From the NCBI GenBank assembly GCA_947460875.1, contig CANHGR010000002.1:62001-126000 (forward strand): DNA of 64,000 nucleotides, given 5' to 3'. The notes beneath the pieces are model-generated. The model ran no database searches and had not been told where the DNA came from. It worked only from the letters and a program-made list of their open reading frames with translations. The position numbers and the translations under genes are program-made. Positions 4,996 to 24,612 of the stretch are shown here, in pieces (position 1 is the first letter of the stretch; each line of letters opens with the position of its first letter). The DNA comes from Sphingobacteriaceae bacterium. GTDB taxonomy: Bacteria > Bacteroidota > Bacteroidia > Sphingobacteriales > Sphingobacteriaceae.

Positions 4996-5082
4996 TCTTT
5001 TAGCTCATAAATAATACATCTAGAATTGTAATTGGTATTTAAAGGCCATTTCCCTAAAATAATCATATTTTTACAGCGATAT

Positions 5083-5150
5083 AAATCACTTTGTAGGTGA
5101 TTGCTTTTTTGAAATTTACATATAACGTTTAAATCATTTTGTATATGATT
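5083..5150 (+). promoter_or_regulatory. thrS translational operator: two tRNA-Thr(UGU) anticodon-arm mimics
   Basis: Two near-identical hairpins lie in tandem. Hairpin 1 has stem AATCAC (5084-5089) / GTGATT (5097-5102) with a 7-base loop TTTGTAG. Hairpin 2 has stem AATCAT (5132-5137) / ATGATT (5145-5150) with loop TTTGTAT. Numbered as an anticodon loop (32-38), both place U at 33, U-G-U at 34-36 and A at 37. That is the anticodon loop of tRNA-Thr(UGU), the substrate of the downstream enzyme. The second stem contains the thrS ATG at 5145-5147. In E. coli, ThrRS represses its own translation by binding anticodon-like hairpins in the thrS leader; the architecture here suggests the same logic. 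The hairpins are read directly; the regulatory role is inferred. Confidence 0.75.
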
Positions 5151-7082
5151 ACTATTACTTTACCTGACGGTTCTGGCCGTCAGTATGAAAAAGGAATTAC
5201 TCCTTTTCAGATTGCTCTTTCAATTTCAGAAGGTCTTTCTCGAAATGTTTTATGTGCCGAAGTCGATCTAGGACAGGGCTCGGAAGTCTGGGATGCTAGT
5301 CGCGCAATCGACTCAAACGCATCTGTAAAGTTAATAACCTGGAACGATCCCCTAGGAAAGGCAACATTCTGGCATTCTTCAGCCCACTTGATGGCAGAAG
5401 CATTAGAGTCCTTATATCCAGGAACTAAATTTGGAATCGGACCTGCAATTGAAACAGGCTTTTATTACGATGTTGATTTCGGCGATAGAGAATTCTCTTC
5501 AGATGATTTTAAGCAGATCGAAGACAAAATCCTTGAACTTGCCAGGGCAAAGTCCACTTTTGAAAGACAGCTGGTCGCTAAGGCCGATGCAATAGCCTAT
5601 TTCACCGAAAAAGGCGATGAGTACAAGCTTGATTTAATTAAAGATCTAGCGGATGGATCGATCACTTTCTATACCCAAGGAAATTTTACTGATCTGTGTC
5701 GCGGACCACATATTCCTAATACGGGCATTATTAAAGCCGTCAAATTAATGAATGTTGCCGGGGCATACTGGCGTGGAGATGAAACTCGGAAGCAACTGAC
5801 ACGTATTTATGGTGTAACTTTTCCTAAGCAAAGCGAGCTGACAGACTATCTTCATGTGATTGAAGAAGCGAAAAAGCGTGATCATAGAAAGTTAGGTAAG
5901 GAACTTGAACTATTTACTTTTTCTGAAAAAGTAGGAATGGGTTTACCGCTTTGGTTGCCAAAAGGCGCCGCTTTACGTGAGAAACTAATTAATTTCCTTC
6001 AACGTGCCCAGGTTAAGGCCGGTTACGAACAGGTTATAACTCCACACATCGGACATAAAAATTTGTACATTACATCAGGCCATTATGAAAAATATGGCGC
6101 TGATTCATTCCAGCCCATCAAAACACCGCAGGAAGGCGAGGAGTTCTTCTTAAAGCCGATGAACTGCCCGCATCATTGCGAAATATACAAGTCTAAACCA
6201 CGTTCTTATAAAGATTTACCTGTGCGTTATGCCGAATTTGGTACAGTTTATCGCTATGAGCAGAGTGGGGAGCTTCATGGTCTAACACGTGTTAGAGGTT
6301 TTACACAAGATGATGCCCATCTTTTCTGCCGTACAGATCAAGTGAAGGATGAGTTTAAAAAGGTAATCGACCTGGTGTTGTACGTTTTCAATGCCCTTGG
6401 ATTCGAGGACTATACTGCGCAGATTTCGTTGCGTGATCCGGCAAACAAGACAAAATATATTGGCTCTGATGAGAACTGGAAATTGGCGGAGAGTGCTATC
6501 ATCGAAGCAGCAGAAGAAAAAGGGTTAAAAACCGTTGTTGAGTTAGGGGAGGCAGCTTTTTATGGTCCGAAGCTTGATTTTATGGTTAAAGATGCTTTGG
6601 GTCGGAAATGGCAATTAGGAACAATTCAAGTAGATTATAACCTGCCAGAACGATTTGAACTCGAGTATACTGGCAGTGATAATATGAAGCACCGTCCGGT
6701 AATGATTCATAGAGCGCCCTTTGGTTCATTGGAAAGATTTATTGCTGTGCTGATTGAGCATTGCGCCGGTAACTTTCCGTTGTGGCTAACGCCCGAGCAA
6801 TTTATTGTTCTTCCGATCTCTGAAAAATATGAAGAATATGCAAAAAAAGTTTTAGAATCGCTTAATAATTCCGATATTCGCGGCCTGATTGACTTTAGAG
6901 ACGAGAAGATCGGGAGAAAGATTCGTGATGCCGAAGTCAAGAAGATACCCTACATGCTAATCATCGGTGAAAAGGAAATGAATGAAGGGATCGTTGGTGT
7001 AAGAAAACATGGCGAGGGTGACTTAGGCGGGATGACGATTGAAAGTTTTAAGAGTCAATTGATTAAAGAAATAACAGTTTAA
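5145..7082 (+). CDS. thrS: Threonine--tRNA ligase
   Basis: Charges tRNA-Thr with threonine in the cytosol. Domains in order are an N-terminal TGS domain ([11 protein letters not shown]..., about residues 1-60), an editing domain with [10 protein letters not shown] and the later Cys/His site near [11 protein letters not shown], a class II catalytic core ([17 protein letters not shown] with the zinc Cys; motif 2 [25 protein letters not shown]; motif 3 [11 protein letters not shown]), and a C-terminal anticodon-binding domain (FPLWLTPEQ onward). At 645 residues it is full length. I chose ATG at 5145 rather than the TTG two codons upstream because the TGS domain starts there. It leads the classic thrS-infC-rpmI-rplT operon, and its leader carries tRNA-Thr-like hairpins. 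Confidence 0.96.
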
Positions 7083-7096
7083 AAGTAGATTTTAAT

Positions 7097-7666
7097 TTGG
7101 CATTAAGTAGACCAAGCTTTAACAGGGGGCCAAGACCTCCATTTAAAAAGAAGGAAGCAGAACACAGTATCAACGAGTTTATCAGGGCGCCTGAAGTTCG
7201 CCTTGTCGGTGATAATGTGGAAAGTGGTATAATGTCTTTAAGAGATGCTTTAGCTTTGGCTGACGAGCAGGGTTTGGACCTTGTTGAAATTTCTCCGAAT
7301 GCAGTTCCGCCGGTCTGTAAGGTTGTTGACTACAACAAGTTTATATACGAGCAGAAGAAGAAGCTGAAGGAGATAAAATCAAATGCTAAGCAAACCGTTA
7401 TTAAAGAGATTCGCTTTGGTCCAAATACAAATGATCACGATTTTGATTTTAAATTAAAACATGCCATAAAGTTTTTGGAGGCAGGGGAAAAAGTTAGGGC
7501 ATACGTTCACTTCAAAGGAAGGGCAATTGTTTATAAAGAGCAAGGAGAGATCTTATTACTTAAGTTTGCTCAGGCACTTGAAGAAACCGGTAAAGTTGAA
7601 CAATTGCCAAAATTGGAAGGCAAGCGTATGTTTTTGACCGTTGCTCCCAAGGGAGGTAAAAAGTAG
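7097..7666 (+). CDS. infC: Translation initiation factor IF-3
   Basis: IF-3 binds the 30S subunit, proofreads start-codon choice and prevents premature 50S joining. The N-terminal domain begins [16 protein letters not shown] and continues [23 protein letters not shown]. The linker and C-terminal domain follow ([40 protein letters not shown]). The length is 189 residues with a basic N-terminal extension. The start appears to be TTG at 7097, since the next in-frame ATG is far inside the N-terminal domain. A non-canonical start is a family habit: E. coli infC uses AUU, and IF-3 discriminates against such starts to autoregulate. It follows thrS by 14 bases. Confidence 0.93.
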
Positions 7667-7976: not shown

Positions 7977-8321
7977 ATGCCACGTTCGGTTAACGCAGTA
8001 GCGTCAAGAAGAAGAAGAAAAAGAATCCTCGACCTAGCCAAAGGCTATTGGGGTTCTAGAAGCAAGGTATACACCGTTGCGAAGAATACAGTAGAAAAAG
8101 GTTTGCAATATGCTTACCGAGATAGAAAAACCAAGAAAAGGGAATTCAGAGCATTGTGGATACAACGTATTAATGCAGGAGCTCGTCAATATGGAATTTC
8201 TTACTCTCAACTAATTGGAAAATTGGCTTCAAAAGAAATCGGTTTGAACCGTAAAGTTTTGGCCGATCTAGCTCTAAACAATCCGGATGCTTTTAAAGCA
8301 GTGATTGATGCGGTGAAATAA
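7977..8321 (+). CDS. rplT: 50S ribosomal protein bL20
   Basis: A 114-residue basic protein starting [36 protein letters not shown], the invariant L20 N-terminal extension, followed by [29 protein letters not shown]. It binds 23S rRNA early in 50S assembly and in several bacteria represses its own operon. It is the last gene of the thrS operon and is followed by a strong intrinsic terminator. Confidence 0.97.
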
Positions 8322-24085: not shown

Positions 24086-24221
24086 AAGCTAAATTTCTTC
24101 TTTTTTATCTTATGGGCTAGAAATTAGTTCGTTGCGATAACAAATCTACTATAAAGATTGTTTGATATCGTTATCTACATTCTCGCATTTGGGGAAGGAG
24201 AATTCTTTGAAATTTTAAAAA

Positions 24222-24612
24222 GCAAGCCTATAAGCCGGGTTCTGTCTCCTGCTCCGATTTTCATCGGCACAGAACTTCTATCATTTATCTTGCCCTTTCA
24301 TTGCTGAAAGGATCTAACGACCTACCCATTCCGTGGAGCGAGCAACTCCTTTCCATTCCCGATATCATCGGGCGATGGATTCGAAACCTATTTGGTCTTT
24401 CAACTCCTGGGGTTTACCGCAATGCATGTCGCCATGCAAAGCTGTGAGCTCTTACCTCACATTTTCACCTTTACTCCAATGGAGTAGTTTATTTTCTGTG
24501 GCACTTGCCGTCCCCGACAAGTCGGGGCCTTCCCGTTAGGAAGCAGGATGCTCTATGTTGCCCGGACTTTCCTCCCCCTTGTTATTAAGAGAGCGATAGA
24601 ACGGCTTGCAAC
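24222..24612 (-). ncRNA. rnpB: RNase P RNA (class A)
   Basis: The catalytic RNA of RNase P, which trims tRNA 5' ends. On the minus strand it begins with GCAAGCC, which pairs with GGCTTGC at the 3' end (P1). Conserved blocks are in order: GAGGAAAGTCCGGGC, GCCACAGAAAATA, AGGTGAAAATGTGAGGTAAG with AGCTCACAG, GCGGTAAACCCC, and near the 3' end ACCCGGCTTATAGGCTTGC. A GC-rich P12-like arm GCCCCGACTTGTCGGGGAC is present. The 3' end is followed by a T-run. A plus-strand frame at 24333-24539 lies inside it and is not a gene. Ends are estimated to within a few bases. Confidence 0.96.

Follow-up and report, generated by a model that had tools for sequence, protein, structure and literature searches.

Tandem hairpins resembling a threonine anticodon arm in the thrS leader of Sphingobacteriaceae: a probable autogenous operator

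The thrS locus and its leader hairpins

The window, the whole 64-kb stretch of Sphingobacteriaceae DNA that was analysed, carries thrS at 5145..7082 on the plus strand. The gene encodes a threonyl-tRNA synthetase (ThrRS) of 645 amino acids counted from the ATG, with the Pfam domains TGS, tRNA_SAD, class II core, and HGTP_anticodon, and the protein aligns over its length to the solved ThrRS structures 1nyq and 1qf6. The next gene on the plus strand is infC (7097..7666), assigned by Pfam to initiation factor IF-3, after which come rpmI (~7696 on) and rplT (7977-8321), and the gene order thrS-infC-rpmI-rplT is identical in the window and in E. coli. No Rfam family matches the thrS leader of the window, and the E. 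coli thrS leader is likewise without a match. Rfam recognised a single feature across the whole window, a class A RNase P RNA gene at 24215-24612 on the minus strand (RF00010, 257.6 bits).

Directly upstream of thrS, on the plus strand, lie two near-copies of one hairpin that resemble the anticodon arm of a tRNA and are spaced 48 nt from centre to centre. The first, H1 (5084..5102; AATCAC-TTTGTAG-GTGATT), has its stem at 5084-5089/5097-5102 and its loop, UUUGUAG, at 5090-5096; read from the sequence in anticodon numbering, U33 is at 5091, UGU at 5092-5094, and A37 at 5095. The second, H2 (5132..5150; AATCAT-TTTGTAT-ATGATT), consists of a 5′ arm AAUCAU (5132-5137), a loop UUUGUAU (5138-5144), and a 3′ arm AUGAUU (5145-5150), the first triplet of which is the thrS ATG (5145-5147). 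In each hairpin, 6 Watson-Crick pairs close a 7-nt loop of the form U32-U33-U34-G35-U36-A37-N38, and between the two hairpins runs an AU-rich linker (5103..5131, plus strand) whose sequence and length are variable among the leaders of relatives. A sequence-only reading of this DNA had described two tandem hairpins with 6-bp stems, 7-nt loops, and U33, UGU, and A37, the second enclosing the thrS ATG in its 3′ arm, and our coordinates of 5084-5102 and 5132-5150, with the ATG opening the 3′ arm of H2, confirm this description. The near-copy arms and the spacing of 48 also held, except that the leading A of the arm it quoted as AAATCAC is unpaired and does not belong to the stem.

Both strands of the window were scanned for U33-N-GU-A37 loops of 7-8 nt on stems of at least 6 bp. 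Just three such hairpins were found in the 64 kb, and two of them were H1 and H2, both on the coding strand, 48 nt apart, and ahead of thrS; the window together with the other leaders served as the background for hairpin frequency. The centroid fold of 5076-5170 consists of H1 and H2. The folding energy of this segment is unexceptional compared with shuffled sequence (z = 0.26), and thus the case for the hairpins is a comparative one and does not depend on stability. H1 and H2 have arms so alike that these could exchange partners, which counts against the fold, and folding of 5060-5170, which starts upstream of the likely promoter, gives another minimum-energy structure. Upstream of H1, TAATCATA (5060-5067) is perfectly complementary to TATGATTA (5144-5151), which surrounds the start codon; this segment would compete with H2 if transcribed, but it is located within the likely promoter and hence probably outside the mRNA.

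A probable -7 promoter element, TATTTTTA, is located at 5066..5073 on the plus strand, one base off the TAnnTTTG found at the same place in relatives. The box TAnnTT(T/C)G, which we take to be the Bacteroidota -7 element, occurs upstream of the hairpin in 47 of 68 mimic leaders, mostly 5-16 nt away, as against 11 of 162 control windows, and several of the remaining mimic leaders have near-matches to it (e.g. GCATATTTGC). Because the box stands upstream of the mimic, H1 would coincide with the likely start of the transcript or follow it closely, and the thrS transcript probably begins just upstream of H1.

Conservation and compensatory changes

Upstream regions of thrS were taken from 60 relatives, from 80 named genomes (Mucilaginibacter, Pedobacter, Olivibacter, Sphingobacterium, and more distant Bacteroidota), and from a draw across the whole phylum, and were read directly; these leaders share ancestry, so that the counts given here are not independent and overstate independence. 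Both hairpins are present in nearly all leaders of the window's family, Sphingobacteriaceae. The H2 pattern, ATCATN{1,2}TNGTANRTGAT, was found in 136 of 151 family genomes, whereas the backward-read control was merely sporadic, and the pattern sits at the thrS start wherever one genome was covered by both the pattern search and the leader search. From 38 family leaders chosen by position alone, RNAalifold predicts exactly H1 and H2. In this set all of the H1 pairs (6/6) show double-sided compensatory changes, and the covariation score is 0.202 compared with at most 0.076 for slid structures. The H2 pairs scarcely vary and give almost no covariation signal, since the start codon and the codon after it lie in this stem. 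Two checks named in the sequence-only reading, conservation of hairpins and loop in orthologous leaders and compensatory changes in the stems, thus came out in its favour, the second of them through H1, with H2 pairs carrying little information.

The comparison was extended to 49 leaders reaching past the family, in which the H1 stem is almost rewritten and 94% of cells still pair. Stems beyond the family include GCATCT/AGATGC, CCTGC/GCAGG, TGGCTTAC/GTGAGCCG, and GCGAAAAC/GTTTTTGC, with the loop retained. The covariation score of this set, 1.066 versus at most 0.157 for slid controls, is biased because its rows were picked as hairpins, which applies neither to the covariation of the 38 leaders nor to the test of positions 35 and 36 given below.

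Some members of the family deviate from the common arrangement. The operator is missing from G010, G032, G022, and G017, and G030 and G025 have H2 but no clear H1. Upstream of thrS in G030 (L010), H1 and the promoter have given way to a sequence resembling a tRNA and, after it, a hairpin resembling a terminator, with an intact H2 immediately downstream. Another genome (G296:C8:226827-226888) contains two identical copies of the H2 pattern (ATCATTTTGTAGATGAT) at a spacing of 45 nt, which suggests duplication or homogenisation of the two modules.

H2 is a weak, AU-rich hairpin of 5-6 bp, and its non-coding 5′ arm is almost invariant in family leaders. On its coding side, isoleucine at codon 2 is written as AUA in 0 of 46 H2-bearing genes versus 27 of 78 genes without H2 (Fisher p ~6e-7, with relatedness ignored). 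AUA at codon 2 would break the outer pair of H2, and its avoidance is as pairing requires. A weak, AU-rich hairpin that buries the AUG might also act as a passive mask on the start codon, either as a translation brake or as an RNA thermometer, with its loop read by no protein. We consider this extremely unlikely, since the loop is conserved as much as the arms, H1 carries the same loop away from the start region, and single hairpins outside the family stand 8-48 nt upstream of the start.

The threonine anticodon signature and its reader

When U33 and A37 were held fixed and positions 35 and 36 were left free, hairpins with GU occurred in 71 of 184 distinct thrS leaders and those with any other dinucleotide in at most 4; dinucleotide-shuffled leaders gave an expectation of 0.6% for GU. 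All four bases were found at position 34 (U90, C9, A7, and G1 across the hairpins). As read from these leaders, the conserved loop is U33-N34-G35-U36-A37 with 7 or 8 nt, which displays NGU, that is, any threonine anticodon, and its conserved part is exactly what all threonine anticodons have in common. The retention of G35 and U36 with a free wobble base 34 matches the expectation for the reading of threonine anticodons. The sequence-only reading had regarded UGU as the anticodon of the mimic and had given the loop 7 bases; both statements are true of the two window loops, while among orthologues UGU is only the commonest case, N34 being variable, and the loop has 7 or 8 nt.

Copying of tRNA-Thr stem sequence was also considered and was rejected, because the genome's own tRNA-Thr arms, ACUGA-CUUGUAA-UCAGU in tRNA-Thr(UGU) and CUUCC-UUGGUAA-GGAAG in another tRNA-Thr, are unlike the mimic stems.

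The inverted repeats could be taken for a DNA operator bound by a transcription factor at the thrS promoter, since the palindromic arms AATCAC/GTGATT, just downstream of the promoter box, resemble a factor site and Flavobacteriaceae thrS has a different conserved motif upstream of the promoter. However, what is conserved is an asymmetric U-N-G-U-A loop, and the arms of H1 have been freely exchanged for others through compensatory changes, which is the reverse of a DNA palindrome. The specificity of the signature for GU at positions 35-36, the overlap of H2 with the start codon, and the widely varying spacing between H1 and H2 also argue against such a site, which we therefore regard as very unlikely.

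If the loop is read as RNA, its reader might be a factor for U36-A37 loops in general, for example the t6A37-modifying enzymes, and the hairpins may then be modified like tRNA. U36-A37 is the general context of t6A, and A37 is conserved beside U36 in the mimics, while the two mimic loops of E. coli carry G or U at position 37. General t6A recognition has no need of G35, yet G35 is kept (71 leaders versus at most 4 for any other dinucleotide), and the downstream gene is thrS itself; a reader of this kind thus seems exceedingly improbable. The position of the leader ahead of an aminoacyl-tRNA synthetase gene also called for comparison with T-box-like leaders, which sense tRNA. The loops show the threonine anticodon (NGU), not the threonine codon (ACN), no Rfam T-box model matches at an E-value up to 10, and the leader is just ~65 nt long. 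These results refute the T-box reading, to which we leave practically no probability.

Proposed control, origin, and comparison with known systems

Taking these results together, H1 and H2 very probably constitute a bipartite autogenous operator at which ThrRS represses the translation of its own message, like the operator of E. coli; thrS is presumed to be the regulated gene and its product the repressor. In the proposed mechanism, H1 would be the structure nearest the 5′ end of the mRNA, and translation would be initiated at H2. Whenever free ThrRS outnumbers tRNA-Thr, both NGU loops would be held by the anticodon-binding domains of the enzyme, and because ThrRS is a homodimer, a single dimer could take both hairpins, one per subunit. 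Binding of ThrRS to H2 would stabilise this weak hairpin, so that the AUG would be buried and the 30S subunit kept off, and plentiful uncharged tRNA-Thr would compete for ThrRS, allowing H2 to open and thrS to be translated. The locking of the start codon by dimeric ThrRS and its relief by tRNA-Thr are proposed by analogy. The distance from hairpin to start ranges from 8 to 89 nt, mostly 37-48, and this variation suggests that each mimic is a contact point of its own. In the window ThrRS, an Asp is aligned with E. coli N575, which we take to be an anticodon contact, and this counts against the proposal; E600 and R609 are kept. The comparisons make it likely that a Bacteroidota synthetase controls its own synthesis through such a circuit, the layout of which, with the start codon within the mimic, would be minimal. 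Bacteroidota generally do without Shine-Dalgarno sequences.

Inspection of 20 H2-pattern places in family genomes disclosed no second regulated gene that would point to a wider ThrRS regulon; thrS aside, almost all of these places look like chance and mostly fall inside long open frames (e.g. IIVVDD, ribB-like frame). One of the 20 is an att copy adjoining an integrase. In genome G303, a second copy of the double operator (C21, ~821440; L235/L248) lies beside a tyrosine-recombinase gene (PF13102, L235:410-1600), the thrS copy being at G303:C11 (L245), and the two copies have in common a 19-bp core, ATCATACTTGTAAATGATT, which is H2. An integrative element in this genome seems to use the thrS mimic as its attachment site, as others use tRNA genes. 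With the element, thrS acquires another promoter and another hairpin with an NGU loop, AGCAG-TATCGTAAT-CTGCT. G303 is the only family genome in which we saw H2 occupied by a mobile element, and the reappearance of such a loop in its replacement leader speaks for the operator reading.

Within the family, a mimic with a stem of at least 5 bp is present in 47 of 54 distinct leaders, and among the leaders read, a second mimic over the start codon was found only there. The other genomes of the best-80 set (Cytophagales-, Chitinophaga-, and Hymenobacter-type) have a mimic in 15 of 55 leaders, and scattered Cytophagales- and Chitinophaga-type genomes carry a single hairpin just behind the promoter. 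In the Flavobacteriaceae-like group (f26), one convincing mimic (G142) was found among 18, and weak AU-only hairpins of Flavobacteriaceae, which stand ahead of the promoter box, were for that reason excluded from the mimic counts. A single mimic among 20 leaders from the phylum's other classes is probably due to chance. The f26 leaders (e.g. L151, L153, L155, and L157) share a conserved TATATATTGTATG motif ~50-60 nt before thrS and upstream of the TAnnTTTG box, and in these genomes without a mimic it is possibly a DNA control site for thrS.

Because Flavobacteriaceae and the other classes are mostly without a mimic and the layout is unlike that of E. coli, the comparison, which covered Bacteroidota leaders and E. 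coli, favours convergence with the E. coli operator over common descent. We give about an even chance to a scenario in which anticodon mimicry at thrS of Bacteroidota arose independently of that in Gammaproteobacteria, with a single hairpin at the 5′ end first, as is still seen in Cytophagales- and Chitinophaga-type genomes, and then in Sphingobacteriaceae a second copy over the start codon that is locked by ThrRS binding.

In the literature searched, including two RNA-motif surveys and with subscription papers mostly outside the search, no account of a thrS operator in Bacteroidota came to light, and this absence is not proof of novelty. T-box leaders of Firmicutes likewise couple synthetase expression to tRNA status through an mRNA leader, but they bind tRNA via a codon-like specifier, whereas the window mRNA displays an anticodon. 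For AspRS, HisRS, ThrRS-RPC10, and others in yeast, binding to an mRNA stem-loop like the anticodon arm of their own tRNA, with regulation of translation as the outcome, has been proposed or demonstrated (PMC6542539, PMC9956033). The likeness lies in a synthetase reading an anticodon-arm-like mRNA stem-loop; these cases concern eukaryotic mRNAs and other regulatory contexts, with no tandem arrangement at a bacterial start codon.

The closest counterpart is the E. coli thrS operator, in which dimeric ThrRS binds two leader hairpins by virtue of their likeness to the anticodon arm and blocks the 30S subunit, and in which control passes to MetRS when the anticodon-like sequence is changed to that of methionine (PMC11088916; PMC9976931). 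The same kind of scan on K-12 found GTGATCT-TTCGTGT-GGGTCAC and ATTTAGC-ATTTGTTG-GCTAGAT, which we identify as domains 2 and 4 of this operator. Both systems have two anticodon-like hairpins in the thrS leader near the start codon, with loops of 7 or 8 nt and with U33 and G35-U36. They differ in that the E. coli loops have G37 or U37 (TTCGTGT and ATTTGTTG) in place of the A37 of the window loops, and in that the E. coli operator has a separate ribosome-binding domain 1, a linker domain 3, and mimics outside the start codon, whereas the window element lacks separate domains of this kind and encloses the AUG in H2. The leader in the window is also shorter than that of E. coli, and outside the family the relatives carry just a single mimic. 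The sequence-only reading was thus right that the known E. coli example has a different layout, although E. coli too has two mimics (PMC11088916) and the difference is that the window element has its start codon within H2 and no ribosome-binding domain apart from the mimics. Given these features, we class the window element as a probable variant of this type of control and distinguish it from the E. coli operator proper. The tRNA mimicry by which thrS is regulated, a textbook case from E. coli, would thus be no enterobacterial peculiarity. It appears to be conserved in a phylum far removed from E. coli, where every threonine anticodon is used and the architecture is another, and the natural series of stem and loop variants found there offers a means of probing what ThrRS reads.
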